64,000 bases of DNA from Tamlana sp. 2_MG-2023 (GTDB lineage: Bacteria; Bacteroidota; Bacteroidia; Flavobacteriales; Flavobacteriaceae), in assembly GCF_030548465.1 (NCBI RefSeq), contig NZ_JAUOSF010000001.1, forward strand, positions 62,001-126,000, given 5' to 3'. How positions within the stretch are numbered: the first letter of the stretch is position 1; the number at the start of each line of letters is the position of its first letter. The notes below the pieces were generated by a model. It was not told where the DNA came from. It searched no databases and saw only the letters and a program-made list of their open reading frames with translations. Made by a program: the position numbers and the translations under genes. Of the stretch, positions 3,785-63,917 are shown piece by piece.

Positions 3785-5035
3785 TTAGTTGCTAATATTT
3801 ACAGAACTCCCTTCGTTATAGCCTATAATTCTATCATATCGAGCTCCTAAATCTCTGTAATATACTAATACTTTGTAGCTATTTTCGGTTTGCCAATGAT
3901 TTCCACTTATATACCCTTCATCTATTTCACCATCTGCATTGACAACAACATATTTATAATTGTAAAATCCTTGTTTCAACAAAAGGGAGCTACTGAAAAT
4001 GTTTTTTGAAGCATCGTATGACATCTTGGTAGCTTCTTCAATGGCATAATTATTAAAGCTACCATAAACATGTATATTTTTGTCTTTTATGGTGTTATCC
4101 GCTTTTAATGAAAAATGCATCCAAACATAATCTGCTTCAATATCTGGGTTTGTGGCATCTAAATTGTTTATTACATAATTACCGTTGATATCCGGGTTAT
4201 AGGTGTAGGGTTGGCTGACACGACTCACATTGGTGTACATATAATTATGATATAAATCTTGTAAGTCTATAAATTGTATGTTGTTATTCGCGCCACGAAC
4301 ATCTTTGTTTTCAAAAAAGAAGTATTCGTTTCCACCCCAAAAACTAGTTTCTGAATCGTATTTGTATATTAACTGATTGCCTAAAGTATATTGAGGCCTG
4401 ATATCTGTAATAGCTGTTTTAAGATTATTATTTTGGATAATCACAGCATTAACAGTTTGCAATGGGTTGTTAAACTGAATTCGGTTAGAATCTACAATAA
4501 GTTCTACACGTTGCTTAGCTTCAATGCTTTCCATGTCTCTGGTTCGTTTTACAACAACACCAACATTAGCTATGTTTTCATAAAGCATAAATTTACGTGA
4601 AAAAACAAGTTCACTGTTGTTGTCGTAAATGAAAATCATGTAATTTCCAGACACTTTTAGACCTCTTGTTTGGTCGTTTGGAATGGTAAGTTTGTAGTGA
4701 GAAAATATTTGATAGGTATTAAAGGAGTTTTCGTATTCTCGTATACGTTGGTTGTCGAAACCATCTAGGTATTCTGACTGTACTAAAACGGAAGGTGTCC
4801 AATCGCGGTTATAATATTTTATTTTATAGTAAAAGTCGTCTTCATTACCATTTAAAGCATCAAATTCTAAAATAATAGGATCGCTCATATTTAAAATAGG
4901 CAATTGATTTTCGTTTGTGCCACTTCTAAAATTGATAGTTTTTATATAGTCAGGCGGATTTGTTTCTTCAACTTGAGCAAAAAGGAACACAGGAAGTAAG
5001 AAAGCGATGATGTTTAATGTGAGTTTTAGTCTCAT
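3785..5035 (-). CDS. Type IX secretion system plug protein (DUF5103)
   Basis: This 416-residue protein has a clear signal peptide (MRLKLTLNIIAFLLPVFLFAQ). The mature protein begins with a DYIKTINFRSG segment and contains YYNRDWTPS, NYMIFIYDN and a C-terminal GFYNYKYVVV region, all typical of DUF5103. Established work on Flavobacterium johnsoniae showed that a protein of this family (Plug) occupies the periplasmic end of the giant SprA outer-membrane channel of the type IX secretion system. Here it is divergent from nqrA. No other T9SS component is in the window, so the main machinery must lie elsewhere. Confidence 0.85.
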   Translation of the reverse strand: MRLKLTLNIIAFLLPVFLFAQVEETNPPDYIKTINFRSGTNENQLPILNMSDPIILEFDALNGNEDDFYYKIKYYNRDWTPSVLVQSEYLDGFDNQRIREYENSFNTYQIFSHYKLTIPNDQTRGLKVSGNYMIFIYDNNSELVFSRKFMLYENIANVGVVVKRTRDMESIEAKQRVELIVDSNRIQFNNPLQTVNAVIIQNNNLKTAITDIRPQYTLGNQLIYKYDSETSFWGGNEYFFFENKDVRGANNNIQFIDLQDLYHNYMYTNVSRVSQPYTYNPDINGNYVINNLDATNPDIEADYVWMHFSLKADNTIKDKNIHVYGSFNNYAIEEATKMSYDASKNIFSSSLLLKQGFYNYKYVVVNADGEIDEGYISGNHWQTENSYKVLVYYRDLGARYDRIIGYNEGSSVNISN

Positions 5036-11858: not shown

Positions 11859-12285
11859 CAGTTTTTTTCTTTCTAAGATAATAAAAAATCATAAATATTT
11901 AATCTTCATTAAATTACAAAGTGATTGTTTTCAGTGTTTTATGTGTTTTGAATTCATTGTGAACGATGTGTTTTAAATATAAAAAGAGAACATTACTGAT
12001 TATCCGTAATGTGACATAATTGTTATCGTCAACCTCTACTTGTTTCAGGTTCTCATCACAATATATTAATTATCAGCTTTATTAGATTCCGAAATAAATT
12101 CGGAATGACGTAAATACAATATTTAGGTTACAAAACGGATATACAAAGAACATTACTATACTATAATCTTCAATTTAGATTTGAACCGATTTGATTTAAG
12201 GGATGCAATAGTTGAATATAGTGGTGGTTTGTCCTCAAATAATCAAAATATTATTAAGTTTGCTTAGTGAATATAAATTTAGAAT
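11859..12285. other. 427-bp intergenic region
   Basis: This AT-rich divergent spacer holds one dispersed double-hairpin repeat (12027-12110). I find no open reading frame, RNA gene or clear promoter in the rest. Confidence 0.6.
12027..12110. repeat. Dispersed CGTCA...TGACG double-hairpin repeat, copy 1
   Basis: The element starts with CGTCA and ends with TGACG. It contains two short hairpins: AACCT/AGGTT on the left and ATTCCGAA/TTCGGAAT on the right, joined by TCTCATC and an AT-rich spacer. A second copy with the same order of parts is at 62920-63004. Such units are common between genes in flavobacterial genomes. Confidence 0.7.
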
Positions 12286-17240: not shown

Positions 17241-18005
17241 CTACTCTAAAATAGAATCTGTAAATTCTTTAATGGTATTAATCCCATGATTAGAAACATG
17301 TTTTACAAAAGCACTACCAATAATAGCACCTTTGGCGTATTGTGTGGCTTGTATGAAGGTTTCGTTATTGCTAATACCAAAACCTATAACTTGTGGGTTT
17401 TTAAGGTTCATATCAGCAATGCGTTTAAAATATTGGGTTTGTTCATCGCCAAAACCAGATTGTGAACCCGTAGTACTCGCACTACTCACCATGTATATAA
17501 AACCGTTTGAAATAGAATCGATATAACGAATACGCTCATCATTAGTTTGTGGAGTAATTAAGAAGATATTTCTCAGTCCGTATTGCTCAAAGATGGCTTG
17601 ATATTGCTCATGATACACATCTACAGGTAAATCAGGAATGATTAAGCCGTCAATGCCTATTTCCTGACATTTTTTACAGAAGGCTTCTACACCATATTGA
17701 AACATCGGGTTAAAATAGCCCATGATGATTAATGGAATGTTTACCGTTTTACGGATGTCTTTTAACTGATTGAAAAGCACTTCGGTAGTCATACCATTTT
17801 TTAAAGCCTGTGTTGAGCTGGCCTGAATGGTTGGGCCATCGGCTAATGGGTCGCTAAAAGGTAAACCTATTTCAATAATATCAACACCGTTTTTTTCTAA
17901 ATCTTGTATGATAGAAACCGTATCGTTAATATTAGGGTAGCCTGCTGTGAAATATATAGACAGTAGCTTTTTGTCTTCGCTTAGTTTTTTATTTATTCTG
18001 TTCAT
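17241..18005 (-). CDS. trpA: Tryptophan synthase alpha subunit
   Basis: TrpA cleaves indole-3-glycerol phosphate to indole and glyceraldehyde 3-phosphate in the alpha2beta2 complex with TrpB. The 254 residues include the catalytic Glu45 in IIEIGLPFSDPLADGP and Asp56 in the same loop, matching Glu49 and Asp60 of the E. coli enzyme. It is the last gene of the trp operon. Unusually it is separated from trpB by a 353-bp repeat-bounded cassette carrying a GIY-YIG gene; in most genomes trpB and trpA overlap or nearly touch. Confidence 0.97.
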   Translation of the reverse strand: MNRINKKLSEDKKLLSIYFTAGYPNINDTVSIIQDLEKNGVDIIEIGLPFSDPLADGPTIQASSTQALKNGMTTEVLFNQLKDIRKTVNIPLIIMGYFNPMFQYGVEAFCKKCQEIGIDGLIIPDLPVDVYHEQYQAIFEQYGLRNIFLITPQTNDERIRYIDSISNGFIYMVSSASTTGSQSGFGDEQTQYFKRIADMNLKNPQVIGFGISNNETFIQATQYAKGAIIGSAFVKHVSNHGINTIKEFTDSILE

Positions 18006-18025: not shown

Positions 18026-18045
18026 ATTCCCTCGAAGGAGGGAAT
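18026..18045 (+). repeat. Left hairpin of the GIY-YIG cassette
   Basis: Perfect 8-bp stem ATTCCCTC/GAGGGAAT with a GAAG loop, followed by CT. Matches the hairpins at 18361-18378, 38832-38851 and 63039-63058. Confidence 0.8.
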
Positions 18046-18060
18046 CTTTTAATAATTATT

Positions 18061-18345
18061 TTAAATATATTCTGAAAGATCTTTCCAATCAGGATTCAAT
18101 CCATTAATTAAATTTATTTTCCATTCTCGGTTCCATTTTTTTAATTGGTGTTCTCTTTTTATAGCGTTATTTATATATTTCGTTGTTTCAAAATAGACTA
18201 ATTTATCTACATTATATCTTCCCGTAAAGGTTTTTATACTGTTGTTTTTATGTTGAATTAATCTTGTTTTTAATTGTTTTGTACGACCTATATATAGAAC
18301 GGTATGGTTTTTATTGGTTAATATGTACACATAATAAAGATCCAT
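18061..18345 (-). CDS. GIY-YIG nuclease family protein
   Basis: This 94-residue single-domain protein belongs to the small UvrC-N-terminal-like nucleases. The GIY-YIG core is VYIL followed by LYIGRTKQL, with the basic LKTRLIQHK helix and the catalytic glutamate in AIKREHQLKKWNREWK. Such stand-alone proteins are numerous in flavobacterial genomes and their biological role is not settled. Here the gene sits inside the trp operon between trpB and trpA, in the same direction, flanked by inverted hairpins, which suggests it was inserted as a cassette. It would be transcribed with the operon. Confidence 0.9.
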   Translation of the reverse strand: MDLYYVYILTNKNHTVLYIGRTKQLKTRLIQHKNNSIKTFTGRYNVDKLVYFETTKYINNAIKREHQLKKWNREWKINLINGLNPDWKDLSEYI

Positions 18346-18360
18346 AAAAAATGGGTGAGA

Positions 18361-18378
18361 TTTCCGCCTTCGCGGAAA
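18361..18378 (-). repeat. Right hairpin of the GIY-YIG cassette
   Basis: Perfect 7-bp stem TTTCCGC/GCGGAAA with a CTTC loop on the plus strand, which reads GAAG on the minus strand. It is the inverted partner of the hairpin at 18026-18045 and lies 15 bp before the GIY-YIG start codon. Confidence 0.8.
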
Positions 18379-18388
18379 TTAGAAAATT

Positions 18389-19570
18389 TTAGATTTTGAA
18401 ATACTCAATATAATTCTGTAAATCTTTATCACCACGACCTGATAAACTCACGACAACCACATCGTCTGGTTTAAAGGTCTTTTCTTCAAAAATAGCTAGG
18501 GCATGTGAGCTTTCTATAGCTGGAATGATGCCTTCTAATTTACATAAGTCTAAACCTGCTTTCATAGCTTGGTCATCGGTCATGGCCATGAATTCGGCAC
18601 GTCCTGATTTACATAAATGGGCATGCATTGGACCAACACCTGGGTAATCTAATCCAGCTGAAATAGAATACGGCTCGGTAATTTGTCCGTCGTTAGTTTG
18701 CATCAACAAAGTTTTACAACCGTGAATGATGCCTTCTTTTCCTAAAATAGAAGTTGCCGCGCTTTCGCCTGAATCCACACCGTGTCCAGCAGCTTCTACA
18801 GCGATAATATTCACATCTTCTTCGTGTAAATAATGGTAATAAGTTCCAGCAGCATTACTTCCGCCACCAATACAAGCCACAACGTAATCTGGATTTTCAC
18901 GACCTTCTTGCTCTTTTAATTGCCATTTGATTTCTTCGGAAATCACCGCCTGAAATCGGGTCACCATATCAGGGTAGGGGTGCGGACCAATAGCTGAACC
19001 AATAATGTAATGCGTATCTACAGGATTGTTAATCCAATCGCGAATCGCCTCATTTGTAGCATCTTTAAGTGTACGGCTACCAGATTTTGCTGGAACTACA
19101 CTGGCGCCTAACATTTTCATTCTAGCCACGTTTGGTGCTTGTCTAGCAATATCAATTTCTCCCATGTATACAATACATTCAAGCCCCATTAGTGCACAAA
19201 CTGTAGCTGTGGCCACACCGTGTTGCCCAGCACCTGTTTCAGCAATAATACGAGCCTTGCCTAAACGTTTAGCCATTAAAATCTGACCAATAGTATTGTT
19301 TATTTTGTGAGCCCCTGTGTGATTTAAATCCTCACGCTTTAAATATATTTTGGTGTTGTATTTTTCTGAAAGACGCTTTGCAAAATAAAGCGGGGAGGGG
19401 CGACCAACATAATCTTTTAAAAGCTTGTCGAATTCTGCTTTAAAATCAGGTTCGGCCATCACTTTTAAGTAGTTTTGGCGTAACTCTTCTACGTTTGGGT
19501 ATAACATTTCTGGAATGTATGCACCACCAAATTCGCCGTAGTATCCTTTGTCGTTTACGTTATAATTCAT
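18389..19570 (-). CDS. trpB: Tryptophan synthase beta subunit
   Basis: TrpB joins indole and serine to make tryptophan using pyridoxal phosphate. The 393-residue protein has the PLP lysine in [12 protein letters not shown] (Lys89), the phosphate-binding GGGSNAAG loop and the conserved GRPSPLYFA and EDLNHTGA segments. It overlaps trpF by 4 bp (ATGA), so the two are translationally coupled. Downstream, the usual tight link to trpA is broken by the GIY-YIG cassette. Confidence 0.98.
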
Positions 19571-24341: not shown

Positions 24342-24371
24342 AAAAGGCTTGTCGTGAATGACAAGCCTTTT
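24342..24371 (-). terminator. Attenuator hairpin before trpE
   Basis: The 12-bp perfect stem AAAAGGCTTGTC/GACAAGCCTTTT has a 6-nt loop (ATTCAC on the RNA). On the minus strand it is followed by a U-run that continues to 2-3 bases before the first possible trpE ATG. It lies 45 bases after the leader peptide stop. RNA segment UUCACGA, spanning the loop and the right arm, is exactly complementary to UCGUGAA just after the leader stop codon (24406-24412), a candidate antiterminator pairing. Confidence 0.85.
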
Positions 24372-24415
24372 GATATTTTAATTTTTAAATATACTAGGAT
24401 TTTACTTCACGAAGT

Positions 24416-24463
24416 TTAGTTTCGAAAGCACCACCACCAAGAATTATTTAAAATAGTTTTCAT
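24416..24463 (-). CDS. trpL: trp leader peptide with three tandem Trp codons
   Basis: The 15-residue peptide MKTILNNSWWWCFRN is encoded on the minus strand between the trp promoter and a strong intrinsic terminator. Three consecutive TGG codons (residues 9-11) and a TAA stop at 24416-24418 fit a ribosome-mediated attenuation leader: scarcity of charged tRNA-Trp would stall the ribosome at the WWW run and alter downstream RNA folding. It is too short for ordinary gene callers. Mechanistic parallels are the E. coli and rhizobial trp leaders; the operation in this organism is inference from structure. Confidence 0.85.
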   Translation of the reverse strand: MKTILNNSWWWCFRN

Positions 24464-24482
24464 TTTGTAAATTTTATCTGGC

Positions 24483-24513
24483 CAAATATAAAAATGATAA
24501 GCGATTGCGCAAA
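24483..24513 (-). promoter_or_regulatory. trp operon promoter
   Basis: On the minus strand a TTTG (-33 element, 24510-24513) is followed after 19 bp by TATATTTG (24483-24490), matching the Bacteroidota consensus TTTG-N17-23-TAnnTTTG. The expected RNA start is near 24476, about 13 bases before the leader peptide ATG. Confidence 0.75.
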
Positions 24514-37882: not shown

Positions 37883-38614
37883 ATGAAAGCTAAGAAAAAT
37901 CCCGTAGTAGACATTGGGAGAAATAGCAGTATATATTTTGCTATTGGATTAAATATCATGTTGTTTTTTACTTGGCAGGCTTTAGAAATTAAAACCTATG
38001 AAGTAGACCAAGACCTTGTTGAAATTATCAATATGGAAAAACAATATGAAGAAGAAATTCCAATTGTGAACGTAAATACGCCACCCCCACCGCCACCTCC
38101 TGCATCTGTTCAAGAGTCTATCAAGATTATTGAAGATGTGGTTGAAATTGAAGAAACGGTTATTGAAAGTTCTGAAATCGGACTAGAAGATGCTATTGTT
38201 GCGCCAATTCCTGTAGCTGTTGAAGCTGTAGAAGTTGAAGAAGTTGAAGAAGATGTTCAAGTGCCGTTTGCTGTTATAGAACATGTGCCTGTATTTCCTG
38301 GTTGCGAACAAGGCTCTAATCAAGAGAAGATTGCTTGTTTTCAAGAAAAAATGAAGGCGCACATTTCTAAGCATTTTAAATATCCGCAAGCTGCTTTAGA
38401 TTTAGGTACCCAAGGTCGTGTGTCTGTAGTATTTATAATTGATACTACTGGAAAAATTTCATCAATAAAATCAAGAGGCCCAGATAAAATTTTAGAAAAA
38501 GAAGCAGAACGCATTATAAGTTTACTGCCTAATATGACCCCAGGCAAGCAACGCGGAAAACCCGTAAAAGTTTCTTATGCTGTGCCTATATTCTTTAAAT
38601 TTGAAGAGCGTTGA
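37883..38614 (+). CDS. TonB family energy transducer
   Basis: This 243-residue protein has one N-terminal membrane helix (YFAIGLNIMLFFTWQALEI), a periplasmic linker with seven prolines (TPPPPPPPA) and long Glu/Val-rich stretch, and a C-terminal TonB domain (KHFKYPQAALDLGTQGRVSVVFII...KVSYAVPIFFKF). It spans from inner membrane ExbB/ExbD to outer-membrane receptors. The PVFPGCEQ segment before the domain is typical of the Bacteroidota type. ExbB and ExbD genes are not in the window. Receptors such as the one at 47024 could be clients. Confidence 0.9.
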   Translation: MKAKKNPVVDIGRNSSIYFAIGLNIMLFFTWQALEIKTYEVDQDLVEIINMEKQYEEEIPIVNVNTPPPPPPPASVQESIKIIEDVVEIEETVIESSEIGLEDAIVAPIPVAVEAVEVEEVEEDVQVPFAVIEHVPVFPGCEQGSNQEKIACFQEKMKAHISKHFKYPQAALDLGTQGRVSVVFIIDTTGKISSIKSRGPDKILEKEAERIISLLPNMTPGKQRGKPVKVSYAVPIFFKFEER

Positions 38615-38677: not shown

Positions 38678-38926
38678 CTTTACGTTTATACCTGGTTTCT
38701 ACATTTCATCTCATAGTTTCTACAGTTCAGTCAAACTGTTTTTCAAAATCAGTTCTTCTGTTAGATATTTGCTTCATCATTAATCTTAAAACGTATCATT
38801 ATGAAAAATCAAGACTATCACCTTAAACTTCATTCCCGTGAAAACGGGAATCTAAAAAACAACCGTAACCTCCACCGAAAAACTTTTCACTAAATTTAAC
38901 TTTTAACTTCTAACTTTCGAACCCTT
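38678..38926. other. Spacer between tonB and the LytS kinase
   Basis: Contains one hairpin repeat at 38832-38851 and otherwise AT-rich sequence; nothing else seen. Confidence 0.5.
38832..38851 (+). repeat. Solo hairpin of the GIY-YIG cassette type
   Basis: ATTCCCGT-GAAA-ACGGGAAT-CT, a perfect 8-bp stem with a GAAA loop followed by CT. It has the same shape as the two hairpins bounding the GIY-YIG gene in the trp operon but no nuclease gene nearby. Confidence 0.75.
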
Positions 38927-40264
38927 ATGTCAAAATCTGCTAAAAATAGCATCATATTATTTGTTGTAGCCTGTATTGCTTTTGTAATAGGGACCTTAAT
39001 TAACGGTGGATTTGAAGCTAGAAATGCAAACACACTCCTCATAGATTTTGTGTTTTATCAATTGTATGGTTTCGTGTTAGGGTATTCAAATATGTATTTC
39101 TTTAAGTATTTGAATGGTTTAAATTGGAAGAAAAAGGCCTATGCCAAACGAATTATAATCGGTGTTTTCGGGTCGATAGTCATCACTTTAGTAGGATTGT
39201 TTGTCTTGCGTTCAGCCTCGGCAATGGTTTATTATGACATGGACTTTAATACTTTCTTAAGTCGTGAGAAGATTGAATATTATCAATTCGGACTCTGGAT
39301 TACCCTTACCATTGTAGCCATATTTCATGTTATTTATTATTACAATAGATATCAGCAAAACAAGTTAAAAGAGCAAAAAGTTATTGCAGGGACCGCCAGT
39401 GCAAAGTTTGACGCCTTAAAAAATCAATTAGACCCGCATTTTCTGTTTAACAGTTTAAATGTATTAACCAGTTTAATTGAAGAAAATCCTAAAAACGCAC
39501 AAAAATTCACCACTGGATTATCAAAAGTGTACCGCTATGTTTTAGAACAAAAAAGTAAAGAGTTAGTTACGGTAGATGAAGAATTGCAGTTCGCAAAAAC
39601 TTACATGTCCTTACTAAAAATGCGTTTTGAAGACAGTATCGTGTTCACGATGCCAGAGCAGGCTTCTAATCCAGAAAGTAAGGTCGTGCCGCTATCATTA
39701 CAGCTTTTATTAGAAAACGCCGTAAAACATAATATGGTGACCTCCAGCAAGCCATTGCACATCACCATATATGAAGAAGGACATAATTTAGTGGTTGAAA
39801 ACAATTTTCAGCCCAAACAAATAGTAAAAAAGAGTAGTGGAGTAGGTTTAAATAATATTAACCAACGCTATAATTTACTCACCAATCGTAAAGTCAATAT
39901 AACCAAAGAAGCAAAGCGTTTTGCTGTGTCAATCCCTATGCTTACTAAAAAAATATCAATTATGAGAACAACATCACATACACATTTAGACGATAGTTAC
40001 GTACGCGCACGCAAACACGTAGAAGAATTAAAAGGCTTTTATTACAGCTTAGCATCCTATTGGGTAGTCATTCCATTTTTAATTTTTGTAAACTATAAAA
40101 CCTTTTGGGGCTTCCAGTGGTTTTGGTTTCCTATGTTTGGCTGGGGTTTAGGCCTTGTTATTCAAGCCTTCCGCGTTTTTGTAGACGACGGTGCTTTTGG
40201 CCGAAACTGGGAAAAACGCAAACTTGAACAATTTATGAAAGAAGAAAAAAGCAAATGGAACTAA
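38927..40264 (+). CDS. LytS-family sensor histidine kinase fused to a 2TM domain
   Basis: This 445-residue protein has four N-terminal membrane helices (about 8-140), a kinase core with phospho-acceptor His171 in LDPHFLFNSLNVL, and an ATP-binding NxxKHN box (LLLENAVKHNMV) with SSGVGLNNINQRY. After the kinase domain an in-frame extension from about residue 346 (MRTTSHTH) contains a 2TM domain: KHVEELKGFYY, two helices and FGRNWEKRKLEQFM. The ATG at residue 346 could be the start of a former separate 2TM gene. It works with the LytTR regulator at 41273. A MITE-like element sits at its stop codon. Confidence 0.9.
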   Translation: MSKSAKNSIILFVVACIAFVIGTLINGGFEARNANTLLIDFVFYQLYGFVLGYSNMYFFKYLNGLNWKKKAYAKRIIIGVFGSIVITLVGLFVLRSASAMVYYDMDFNTFLSREKIEYYQFGLWITLTIVAIFHVIYYYNRYQQNKLKEQKVIAGTASAKFDALKNQLDPHFLFNSLNVLTSLIEENPKNAQKFTTGLSKVYRYVLEQKSKELVTVDEELQFAKTYMSLLKMRFEDSIVFTMPEQASNPESKVVPLSLQLLLENAVKHNMVTSSKPLHITIYEEGHNLVVENNFQPKQIVKKSSGVGLNNINQRYNLLTNRKVNITKEAKRFAVSIPMLTKKISIMRTTSHTHLDDSYVRARKHVEELKGFYYSLASYWVVIPFLIFVNYKTFWGFQWFWFPMFGWGLGLVIQAFRVFVDDGAFGRNWEKRKLEQFMKEEKSKWN

Positions 40265-41094: not shown

Positions 41095-41240
41095 GTTACC
41101 ACAAGGGTCGGGCTTTCCGTTGCAATCTTTTTTTAGGCAAATTCAAGTGGTTTTTTCGGCTTTAAAAGGTCGTCGAAAGCCTCAAAACAAAAGCAAGTTC
41201 ACAAATAAAAAAAAGGATTTTCACTGCAATCCCTAACGCA
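41095..41240. repeat. Dispersed repeat with GGGCGTTA / TAACGC ends
   Basis: The sequence starts with GGGCGTTACCACAAGGGTCG followed by GGCTTTCCGTTGCAATC and a T6 run, and ends with A8-GGATTTTCACTGCAATCCC and TAACGCAAAGCCC. The two ends are related as imperfect inverted repeats (CGGGCTTT/AAAGCCCG, GCGTTA/TAACGC, GCAATC/GATTGC not perfectly ordered). I recall related non-coding repeats from other flavobacterial genomes. An open frame across it is not a gene. Confidence 0.5.
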
Positions 41241-41272
41241 AAGCCCGTTTCTAATTAAACTTATAGAAAAAA

Positions 41273-61320: not shown

Positions 61321-61450
61321 TTTTAATAATTTAGGAATAAAAAATTCTTTTAGTAATTGGAGTTTGATTTTTTAAAGATTGATTTAAAACCTTTAAGTTC
61401 TTAATCAAGCGGAAAGTTAGTGAATAATAAAGGAAACGCAAATAGTCACT

Positions 61451-61464
61451 ATGACAAATATCAT
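61451..61464 (+). promoter_or_regulatory. Candidate CRP/FNR-type operator before hemN
   Basis: ATGA-CAAATA-TCAT has the TGA-N6-TCA spacing of CRP/FNR family sites. Its centre is about 43 bases before the expected RNA start deduced from the -7 element, a position typical of class II activation. The half-sites are short, so this is tentative. Confidence 0.35.
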
Positions 61465-61486
61465 GTTTTAAAATGTTGTTTACAGC

Positions 61487-61494
61487 TATTTTTG
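61487..61494 (+). promoter_or_regulatory. Candidate -7 element for hemN
   Basis: TATTTTTG matches TAnnTTTG and is 18 bases before the ATG at 61513. There is no clear TTTG at the -33 position, which is compatible with an activator-dependent promoter. Confidence 0.45.
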
Positions 61495-61512
61495 TGTATT
61501 GATCCTTTTGTC

Positions 61513-62877
61513 ATGTTAAACGAACTAGTAAATAAATACAATATCCCAGGACCTAGATACACCAGTTATCCTACGGTTCCTTATTGGGATAGCGGGACTT
61601 TTTCATTAGAAAAATGGAAAACATCATTACAAAAATCCTTTGCGGAAAGCAATGAGAAAGAAGGTGTTAGCCTTTACATTCATTTGCCTTTTTGTGAAAG
61701 TTTGTGCACTTTTTGTGGTTGTAATAAGCGTATTACTAAGCAGCATAGTGTGGAATCGCCATATATAACCGCGGTTTTAAAAGAATGGCAGTTGTATATA
61801 GAATTGTTTGACCAGAAGCCAATTATCAAAGAATTACATCTTGGAGGTGGTACCCCAACATTTTTTAGGCCAGAGCACTTGACCATGCTTATAAATGGAC
61901 TTTTAAAAGATGCTATTCGTGCTGAAAATTATGAATTTAGTTTTGAAGGCCACCCCAATAATACCACAAAAGAACATTTACAAGCCTTGTACGATGTTGG
62001 TTTTAGACGCGTAAGTTATGGCGTTCAAGATTACAACGAAACCGTGCAAAAGGCGATACATAGAATTCAGCCTTTTGAAAATGTAAAACAAGCTACCGAA
62101 ATGGCGCGAGCCATTGGTTATACGTCGGTGGGGCACGATATTATTTTCGGATTGCCGTTTCAAACCATTGAGCACGTTCAGGAAACCATTTTAAAAACAA
62201 AGGCATTGCTTCCCGATCGATTGGCATTTTACAGTTATGCGCATGTGCCATGGATTAAAGGCAATGGGCAACGCGGATTTAAGGATTCCGATTTACCTTC
62301 CGGGGAATTAAAAAGAAAACAGTACGAGCTAGGAAAACAATTGTTAGCAGAAGTAGGGTACGAGGAAATTGGTATGGATCATTTTTCTCTAAAATCAGAT
62401 TCGCTTTATAAATCTATGATTTCTGGTGATTTACATCGGAATTTTATGGGCTATACCGCTTCAAAAACTCAGGCTATGATTGGACTAGGCGTATCGTCTA
62501 TAAGCGATAGTTGGTATGGATTCTCTCAAAACGTGAAGTCTATTGAAGCGTACTATAAACTGCTGGAAGAAGATACAATTCCTGTTTATCGCGGACATAT
62601 TTTAAATGAAGAAGACCTTATTATTCGTAAGCACATACTCAACTTAATGTGCCGCTTTAAAACATCGTGGACAGCAGATCAACTCTATTTTAAGGAATTG
62701 CCAGATGTGCTTGTGAAGCTGCAAGAAATGGAAAAAGATGGCTTGCTGATTAGGACTAAAAACAGTGTAGAAGTCACTCAAAAAGGACAACCTTTTGTGC
62801 GTAATATTTGTATGGCATTTGATGTGTTATTACAACGGAAACAGCCGCAAACGCAGTTGTTTTCTATGACGATATAA
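61513..62877 (+). CDS. hemN: Oxygen-independent coproporphyrinogen III oxidase
   Basis: HemN decarboxylates coproporphyrinogen III to protoporphyrinogen IX without oxygen, using radical SAM chemistry. With the start at 61513 (MLNELVNKYNIPGPRYTSYP) it has 454 residues; the 4Fe-4S cysteines are Cys61, Cys65, Cys68 and the extra Cys70, within HLPFCESLCTFCGC, matching E. coli HemN spacing almost exactly. LHLGGGTPTF and SFEGHPNNTT are conserved. A longer frame from 61420 would run through the likely promoter and is rejected. A universal stress gene follows on the same strand. Confidence 0.95.
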   Translation: MLNELVNKYNIPGPRYTSYPTVPYWDSGTFSLEKWKTSLQKSFAESNEKEGVSLYIHLPFCESLCTFCGCNKRITKQHSVESPYITAVLKEWQLYIELFDQKPIIKELHLGGGTPTFFRPEHLTMLINGLLKDAIRAENYEFSFEGHPNNTTKEHLQALYDVGFRRVSYGVQDYNETVQKAIHRIQPFENVKQATEMARAIGYTSVGHDIIFGLPFQTIEHVQETILKTKALLPDRLAFYSYAHVPWIKGNGQRGFKDSDLPSGELKRKQYELGKQLLAEVGYEEIGMDHFSLKSDSLYKSMISGDLHRNFMGYTASKTQAMIGLGVSSISDSWYGFSQNVKSIEAYYKLLEEDTIPVYRGHILNEEDLIIRKHILNLMCRFKTSWTADQLYFKELPDVLVKLQEMEKDGLLIRTKNSVEVTQKGQPFVRNICMAFDVLLQRKQPQTQLFSMTI

Positions 62878-62919: not shown

Positions 62920-63004
62920 CGTCACCTTAAATTTATTTCAAGGTCTCATCATAAAATGTTGACTGAGCAGTTTCATGGGATACCGAATCAAGTTCGGCAT
63001 GACG
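62920..63004. repeat. Dispersed CGTCA...TGACG double-hairpin repeat, copy 2
   Basis: Same order as the copy at 12027-12110: CGTCA, a CCTT...AAGG hairpin, TCTCATCAT, an AT-rich spacer, GATaCCGAATCAAGTTCGGC and ATGACG. Located between hemN and the stress protein gene. Confidence 0.7.
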
Positions 63005-63038
63005 AAATCAAAGGAGATGTCAAAGGTTAGAAAAACAG

Positions 63039-63058
63039 ATTCCCGTTTTCAAGGGAAT
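63039..63058 (-). repeat. Solo hairpin of the GIY-YIG cassette type
   Basis: On the minus strand ATTCCCTT-GAAA-ACGGGAAT-CT, a stem with one mismatch and a GAAA loop followed by CT. Same shape as the hairpins at 18026, 18361 and 38832. Confidence 0.7.
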
Positions 63059-63083: not shown

Positions 63084-63917
63084 ATGGAAAAAATTATTGT
63101 TCCTGTAGATTTTTCTGAACATTCAGAGTATGCTTTACAAACAGCTGCAAAATTAGCTAAAAGGTATCAAGCAGAGCTGTTAGTGCTTCATATGTTGGAA
63201 ATGCCCGAAATGGTATTGACATCAACTGGTAAAAAGCAAAATGAAAAAGCTGGTTTTTTATTACGTTTAACAGAGCAAAAATTTGAGAAACTACTTGATA
63301 AAGATTTTTTATTTGGATTAAAAGTAACCCCAATTATTAAGCATTTTAAGATGTTTAGTGAAGTAAATGATGTCGCTATAGAAAATGGCGCCGACCTTAT
63401 TGTTATGGGAACCCAAGGCGCTAGTGGTTTCAAAGAAATGTTTATGGGATCTAATACTGAACGGGTTATTCGCTATGCGGAAATTCCTGTTTTAGCTGTT
63501 AAAAAAGAGGTCGTGGATGTTAGTTTTGAAGTGATTACTTTTGCGTGCGATTTCTCGGAAGAATGTATTCCAGCTTATTTAAAAGCGCTTGTTTTGTTCG
63601 AAAGCATGAATTCTAAAATGTATTTGGTTTATGTTAATTTGCCTAATGATAAATTTAAAAGCTCTGTAGAAATAGAAAAACGTGTTGCTGATTTTTTCAT
63701 AAAAGCCTGCGGTAATTTAAGACGAATGAAGGATGTTCATTATGTATCGCATTATAGTGTTGAGGAAGGTGTTTTAAATTTTTCCAATAAAATAGGAGCC
63801 GATTTGATTGCGCTTCCAACTCATGGTAAAAAAGGCTTAGCTCATTTTTTTGAAGGTAGCGTAGGTGAAGATGTTGCAAACCATGCGACACTACCAGTTA
63901 TGACATTTAAAATATAA
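63084..63917 (+). CDS. Universal stress protein, tandem UspA domains
   Basis: This 277-residue protein has two UspA domains in tandem. The first starts with KIIVPVDFSEHSEYALQTA and ends with VMGTQGASGFKEMFMGSNTE; the GASGFKEMFMGS segment is the G-2x-G-9x-G(S/T)-type ATP-binding element. The second (VITFACDFSEEC ... ALPTHGKKGLAHFFEGS) has a looser form. Such proteins respond to stress or low oxygen. Its position after hemN fits an oxygen-limitation context, as in several flavobacteria, but a repeat-containing spacer of about 200 bp separates them. Confidence 0.92.
   Translation: MEKIIVPVDFSEHSEYALQTAAKLAKRYQAELLVLHMLEMPEMVLTSTGKKQNEKAGFLLRLTEQKFEKLLDKDFLFGLKVTPIIKHFKMFSEVNDVAIENGADLIVMGTQGASGFKEMFMGSNTERVIRYAEIPVLAVKKEVVDVSFEVITFACDFSEECIPAYLKALVLFESMNSKMYLVYVNLPNDKFKSSVEIEKRVADFFIKACGNLRRMKDVHYVSHYSVEEGVLNFSNKIGADLIALPTHGKKGLAHFFEGSVGEDVANHATLPVMTFKI

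Follow-up and report, generated by a model that had tools for sequence, protein, structure and literature searches.

A GIY-YIG nuclease gene between inverted REP-like palindromes at the trpB-trpA junction of Tamlana sp. 2_MG-2023: a candidate partner enzyme of CGTC/TGTC-like repeats

RAYT genes (TnpA_REP, HUH Y1) with their GTAG-REPs/REPINs share several traits with the locus described here: a small nuclease gene with inverted palindromes of a scattered family on both sides, the occurrence of these palindromes as scattered singles and inverted pairs, a palindrome type that follows the protein clade, and near-vertical descent at low copy number. Free-standing GIY-YIG homing endonucleases of the Seg/I-TevI kind serve as a further comparison system. 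With the present locus they have in common the catalytic domain family and a lateral spread that reaches one conserved site and does not carry the flanks along.

REPs were divided into two superfamilies by Di Nocera et al. (2013), whose accessible text describes the CGTC kind as lacking a dedicated transposase and names this as future work (PMC3733652). According to the same accessible text, CGTC REPs are defined by a CGTC, TGTC or CCTC tag, stems of 8-9 bp starting with AT, loops of 4-5 nt and mostly CCA tails, and the neisserial dRS3 and the rickettsial RPE-4 and RPE-6 were placed in the CGTC/TGTC superfamily (PMC3733652). The accessible parts of PMC12306157 and PMC6006769 list this work among their references, and that of PMC5896051, a later paper naming CGTC-type repeats, makes no mention of GIY-YIG. 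A literature search, in which subscription papers and preprints were thinly covered, yielded no paper linking GIY-YIG genes with REPs. The preliminary description of this DNA had been aware of no such element in the literature; its palindromes do resemble a published REP superfamily, and the GIY-YIG partner is the new part, as the accessible text of PMC3733652 reports no transposase gene for these repeats, whereas a GIY-YIG gene is associated with them here.

In the window, i.e., the whole stretch of 64,000 nucleotides that was analysed, an ORF of 94 aa lies between two hairpins pointing inward from opposite strands, as first noted, and the ORF coordinates confirm that it separates two genes which we take, from their sequence, to be trpB and trpA (Table 1). 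Each flanking palindrome has an 8-bp stem starting with AT and a 4-nt loop, like the CGTC/TGTC-REP superfamily. The hairpin consensus given earlier fits the 3′ palindrome exactly; the 5′ palindrome deviates from it at two positions, yet its 8-bp stem is perfect. The solo hairpins reported at 38832 and near 63039 could also be found, the latter with one stem mismatch.

Table 1. Position of the nuclease gene, its neighbours and the palindromes in the window.
Feature	Position	Strand	Evidence and remarks
GIY-YIG nuclease ORF, 94 aa	18061-18345	-	ORF list, Pfam, AlphaFold2
REP-like palindrome 5′ of the GIY-YIG gene	18358-18379	-	CT tail faces the gene; ATTTCCGCGAAGGCGGAAATCT
REP-like palindrome 3′ of the GIY-YIG gene	18026-18047	+	CT tail faces the gene; ATTCCCTCGAAGGAGGGAATCT
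trpB (presumed), upstream neighbour of the insertion	18389-19570	-	ORF list
trpA (presumed), downstream neighbour of the insertion	17241-18005	-	ORF list; query for the junction search in relatives
Solo palindrome, shape as at the nuclease gene	38832-38853	+	between ORFs 37883-38614 (+) and 38927-40264 (+)
Solo palindrome, shape as at the nuclease gene, one stem mismatch	63037-63058	-	between ORFs 61420-62877 (+) and 63084-63917 (+)
GTC-tagged palindrome of another sequence type (ATGCCGAACTTGATTCGGTAT), one stem mismatch	62980-63000	-	beside 63037-63058
GTC-tagged palindrome of another sequence type (ATTCCGAATTTATTTCGGAAT)	12086-12106	-	palindrome scan

The protein belongs to the GIY-YIG superfamily by its family profile (Pfam GIY-YIG, E 2e-15, 57.3 bits against a cut-off of 22.6) and by its fold. 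The AlphaFold2 model (mean pLDDT 93.0) was compared with solved structures by Foldseek, where 1zg2 (UPF0213) came first and Slx1 and the GIY-YIG domain of UvrC were also among the top matches; the best E was 7e-3 at a TM of about 0.6, and no match had E < 0.001. By sequence profile, the nearest solved relatives are 1zg2 and 1ywl, small GIY-YIG proteins of the UPF0213/YhbQ type. Y7, Y18, G20, R28, H32, E53 and N84, residues with a catalytic role in other GIY-YIG enzymes, are invariant across 19 diverse members. As Slx1 cuts branched DNA (title of 6seh), it is plausible by analogy that a small GIY-YIG protein recognises hairpins or branches. Unlike the Seg/I-TevI kind, the protein has only about 94 aa and no separate DNA-binding domain, its gene is intergenic without an intron, and the element has palindromic ends of its own and scattered palindromes. 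In the own genome (4.01 Mb, 45 contigs), it is the single small GIY-YIG gene; two further domain matches sit in frames of 629 and 471 aa.

A profile search revealed GIY-YIG copies in 164 of 299 genomes of the Flavobacteriaceae, up to seven each, mostly divergent and in many places. For the survey of their flanks 96 loci were taken, roughly by rank among the matches listed with some places skipped, and three with short or N-rich flanks were dropped, leaving 93 copies other than that of the window. The enrichment of hairpins beside small GIY-YIG genes that the preliminary description had proposed as a check could be verified: a strict inward pair is present at 36 of the 93 copies vs 4 of 179 control ORFs taken from the retrieved loci (Fisher p 2.3e-15), while 57 of the 93 fail this strict both-sides test. 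An inward palindrome was counted upstream of 51 copies, downstream of 45 and on at least one side of 60 (13, 10 and 19 for the controls), and outward palindromes numbered 10 upstream and 22 downstream vs 3 and 11 in the controls, which establishes, at the level of sequence, both the association and its polarity. The distances of the inward palindromes peak in the first 100 bp (48 and 41 on the two sides; 7 and 9 in the next bins). Among the 33 loci without a strict match, most show by eye, uncounted, inverted palindromes of another make. An earlier control with looser windows (23/53 vs 5/145) is superseded by this matched comparison; an earlier flank statistic had given 25/39 for GIY-YIG genes vs 7/145 for controls, and a single-arm hairpin score of at least 9 did not separate the downstream flanks (2/39 vs 19/145). 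Two more distant small GIY-YIG genes (L287, L289) are flanked, as read by eye, by another palindrome kind with GAGCGCAGTCGA.

In the window, the palindromes differ from the CGTC/TGTC-REP superfamily in the tag, as TTC and CTA stand in front instead of GTC. The tag is present at other GIY-YIG copies, where 88 of 111 flanking palindromes carry GTC. The tail, mostly CCA and in general short and C-rich in the superfamily, is CT in the window; among the same 111 palindromes, CT was counted 59 times, CC 39, CG 9 and CA 4 times. For E. coli yhbQ, the annotation table by itself gives a gene placed tightly between its neighbours with no such layout.

A reading of the hairpins as nothing but signals for transcription or mRNA processing, of the kind that accompanies any gene inserted into an operon, is very improbable. 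A terminator-like match does lie at 18026-18045 (+), on the strand opposite to trp; however, such matches were about as frequent as in shuffled sequence (2 found vs 2.1), none of them falls on the trp strand at either hairpin, and control ORFs are without the palindrome pairs (4/179). The reading of the hairpins as trp terminators was rejected for the lack of a terminator-like match on the trp strand. An Rfam scan of the window gave no match at the hairpins; it detected the Bacteroid-trp leader (RF01692) at 24360-24483 (-) and the Flavo-1 RNA (RF01705) at 41102-41244 (-), both of which are ordinary in this bacterial group.

Likewise, it is next to negligible in probability that RAYT/Y1 transposases spread these palindromes as ordinary REPs, with the GIY-YIG link due to chance. 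The own genome has three Y1_Tnp matches, one of them below the Pfam cut-off, and upstream of one there is one such palindrome. A search of 60 family genomes gave Y1_Tnp genes in 28, and 26 loci were sampled (23 of L145-L173 and the three own ones), L162 being too short, so that 25 were scored; L155, L159, L160, L165, L166 and L169 were left out for contig ends or broken frames. None of the 25, the three matches of the own genome included, has an inward palindrome pair, in contrast to 36 of 93 GIY-YIG loci, and the flanks that were inspected, those of seven loci, carry other repeats. The Y1/RAYT reading is thus already contradicted within the family and was rejected as the driver. Compared with RAYT/REP systems, the enzyme here is a GIY-YIG and not an HUH Y1 protein, and the palindromes are of the CGTC/TGTC kind. 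Near the Y1_Tnp loci L150, L151 and L153, repeats of the CCCTACGGGG, GTCCCGTAGGGAC and CTCTGGAGC kinds were observed.

The two flanks of a locus resemble each other and change with the protein. Scored against the own downstream flank, the upstream flank reached a mean of 29.7, vs 19.3 for mismatched loci, and 0 of 2000 permutations did as well. The flank score climbs with protein identity (rho 0.55 within genomes, 41 pairs; 0.43 between genomes, 4237 pairs, the pairs not being independent). With classes defined after the data were seen, palindromes of the GTCATTGC type accompany all 17 proteins whose residue at the W71 position is G or Y and 3 of 74 W-type proteins, two further proteins being unclassified; in the G/Y clade, the tag side is turned toward the gene on at least one side in 14 of 17, the reverse of the other copies. 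Protein and palindrome therefore co-vary in sequence.

The palindromes are also scattered apart from the gene. With up to three mismatches, the hairpin pattern gives four matches in the window vs 0.04 expected from shuffles; single matches of the GTC-palindrome scan are weak, as 10 were found in the window vs 3 to 7 in five shuffles. Genome-wide, the exact pattern occurs 12 times (reversed-pattern control, 0) and the relaxed 22-mer with up to two mismatches 49 times (control, 8). Among these 49, there are nine pairs within 400 bp, including that of the nuclease gene itself, where 0.24 would be expected by random placement, and all nine run + then -, which agrees with the frequent dimers in one favoured orientation of the CGTC/TGTC-REP superfamily. 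Recent movement of pairs within the genus was considered and gained no support from the two pairs compared with five genomes: one is old, decayed and common to the whole genus, and of the other, one palindrome (28 bp) is absent from G084, which could be a gain or a loss.

At the level of genomes, compared without phylogenetic correction, 112 of the 164 genomes that have the gene contain GTCATTCCN{10,12}GGAATC vs 39 of 135 without it, and ten or more copies are found in 47/164 vs 5/135; after subtraction of two palindromes for each copy of the gene, the difference persists in weaker form (p 0.001). The palindrome type of the window is found in all 15 genomes with a trp-type gene (13 after removal of two per genome) vs 90 of 284 others. 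In five palindrome-rich genomes (at least 10 copies), no gene was detected at E 1e-10. With laxer criteria, small frames were found in G250, which are without palindromes, and in G096, where one of two frames has GTC palindromes by eye; the palindrome-rich G094, G208 and G282 gave no small GIY-YIG frame.

The trpB-trpA junction of relatives, which was to be inspected for empty sites, is often empty: among 29 readable junctions, 12 have at most 31 bp between the genes, 7 hold a GIY-YIG gene (one truncated) and 10 hold 45-507 bp of other sequence. All 17 relatives in named genomes (75-96% identity over the best segment) sit between trpB and trpA. The scanner detected both palindromes at 16 of these loci, the upstream one of L022 being imperfect and read by eye; in the Kordia copies, the palindromes switch to the ATTCCTGC..GCAGGAAT type (upstream 3/3, downstream 2/3). 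The gene is broken in 4 of the 17 (L018, L025, L027, L028). Among the family-wide profile matches listed, the trp-type copy is at this junction in 15 of 15 places; these sets of 17, 15 and 29 overlap, and L025 and G291:C20, for example, lie on contigs of equal length. As it was found solely there, the trp-type copy seems to resemble a homing gene with a fixed site more than a transposon landing at random.

A second site, likewise an operon junction, could be identified in genome G291, where a GIY-YIG gene of 92 aa with a GTC-tagged palindrome pair precedes an ORF that is presumably bioD-like. This site is empty in the own genome and in G084, where 5 and 10 bp separate the matched flanks; in the former, the upstream ORF ends in a stop that overlaps the start of the downstream ORF (AAAATGAACACA). 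Elsewhere it holds about 79 bp (G299, G301) or about 1.3 kb (G300). As the empty sites are free of palindromes, these arrived with the gene, at least at the second site and at trp. The own genome carries palindromes like those of this second element, without its GIY-YIG gene. No recognisable target-site duplication was found at the insertions.

At the filled site of G291 (L142, ~4350-4420), the downstream ORF seems to begin at ATGAC past the 3′ palindrome, and its start codon may be a new one provided by the insert. In four relatives (G084, G301, G017 and G005; L194, L195, L200 and L204), the trpB-trpA junction is taken up by another repeated insert, which contains GTTACCACAAGGGT or the complementary sequence, so that this junction may be an insertion hot spot. 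By eye, copies were also seen at other trp-operon junctions (L074, L075, L081, L101), namely before an ORF and between two ORFs that we take to be trpE-like, and trpG-like and trpD-like, respectively.

Descent of the GIY-YIG gene together with trpA and trpB, the vertical alternative named in the preliminary description, was rejected (p-AU of the TrpA+TrpB tree 0.0006, 13 sequences). In the comparison of the window with two Formosa loci, the GIY-YIG gene has a dS of 0.27 and 0.34, and trpB and trpA have 1.51-2.22; the Formosa loci themselves differ by 0.24 in the gene vs 0.97 and 0.80 in trpB and trpA. Against the Tamlana loci L015 and L016 the gene dS of 0.89 is unremarkable (1.00-1.22 in the comparison), and the pair of window and L014 and the Kordia pairs show the opposite trend, with dS not low in the gene. 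Per 30-bp block, identity to Formosa is mostly 0.83-1.00 inside the ORF and falls to 0.44-0.87 outside; the upstream palindrome segment resembles Tamlana more than Formosa. The median dN/dS of the gene is 0.07 (19 usable of 78 pairs), indicating strong purifying selection; mean identities were set aside in this analysis because TrpA of L026 is truncated. By its sequence, the trp copy entered the junction laterally without its flanks in the comparison of the window with Formosa, a homing-endonuclease trait found for this comparison alone and not in the other pairs. Low gene dS, the high-identity tract and purifying selection together suggest homing-like copying into a fixed site.

The gene could be a homing endonuclease and nothing more, entering fixed junctions with the palindromes as its ends or binding sites, the scattered ones being old or spread in another way. 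The single site of the trp-type copy and its entry without flanks fit this account, as do the Formosa tract, which spans the ORF and not the upstream palindrome with its Tamlana resemblance, and the genus-wide, decayed state of some scattered pairs. It leaves unexplained, however, that scattered palindromes match the type of the gene, that scattered pairs take its orientation and that palindromes occur more often where a genome has the gene, and we consider it unlikely. Less probable still, at a small chance, is a structure-specific host repair nuclease of the Slx1 or YhbQ kind without mobility of its own, for which the palindromes would be regulators or substrates. The closest folds, strong purifying selection and the annotation of E. 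coli yhbQ as a DNA damage response nuclease speak for such a role, but patchy presence, empty sites, lateral entry, broken copies (4/17) and the change of palindrome with protein clade speak against it. The initial idea of an autonomous element with hairpin offspring is supported by enrichment and empty sites and has to be amended for the trp copy, which is fixed-site and homing-like.

Homologues are not confined to the family. A tblastn search against plasmid records gave 34 records with homologues, some of chromosome size, from Rhizobium, Sinorhizobium, Shinella, Sphingobium, Azospirillum, Novosphingobium, Neisseria, Aeromonas, Planktothrix, Spirosoma and other genera. Of these, 18 were examined, with the near-duplicate pairs L179/L180 and L189/L191. 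A strict inward pair is present at 8 of the 18 loci (10 fail) vs 24 of 444 random intervals; seven of the eight are alphaproteobacterial, two being near duplicates, and the eighth is from Aeromonas caviae, where the downstream palindrome overlaps the ORF end. By eye, a GTC-GCCCCGTG pair was seen at the Novosphingobium locus, and the Neisseria gene lies inside a cluster of ATTCCC-type palindromes. Several of these genera coincide with the CGTC-positive species in the accessible list of the 2013 paper, which includes S. meliloti, A. lipoferum, N. aromaticivorans and Neisseriae (PMC3733652). In addition, copies were observed inside gene sets, at sufB/sufC in Azospirillum (L183) and at rnc/era in Sphingomonas (L190).

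The best reading of these data is that GIY-YIG nucleases are the partner enzymes of CGTC/TGTC-like REPs, with a RAYT-like logic, an unrelated fold and a homing-like spread. The cassette of the window is probably a member of a class of single-domain GIY-YIG genes between inverted CGTC/TGTC-type palindromes that are spread by their nuclease. From the sequence comparisons we infer cleavage and mobilisation by this enzyme. It would recognise its own palindrome type as an extruded hairpin or single strand and nick or cut beside it, and the pair of palindromes, alone or together with the gene, would then be inserted by repair or strand transfer at new, usually intergenic places. At a conserved junction such as trpB-trpA, the unoccupied allele would be cut and the gene copied in by homologous repair, i.e., by homing, and the scattered solos and inverted pairs would be non-autonomous offspring. 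A wider proposal, held tentatively and at somewhat less than even chance, is that GIY-YIG nucleases play the part of transposases for the entire CGTC/TGTC-REP superfamily across several phyla, including the neisserial dRS3, and that the residue at the W71 position helps to set the palindrome recognised.

Since the pairing of gene and palindromes recurs in other bacteria, the GIY-YIG enzyme is a strong candidate for the driver that this widespread repeat family has lacked. The 2013 survey had left the CGTC REPs without an enzyme, and now that there is a specific candidate, with which the palindromes co-vary, the question becomes accessible to bench tests. If the reading is true, two enzymes of unrelated fold each gave rise to the same arrangement, a lone nuclease and its palindromic offspring, many genes annotated as 'GIY-YIG nuclease family protein' or 'excinuclease ABC subunit C' and otherwise unannotated would be accounted for, and a small, possibly reprogrammable nuclease that reads hairpins would be at hand.
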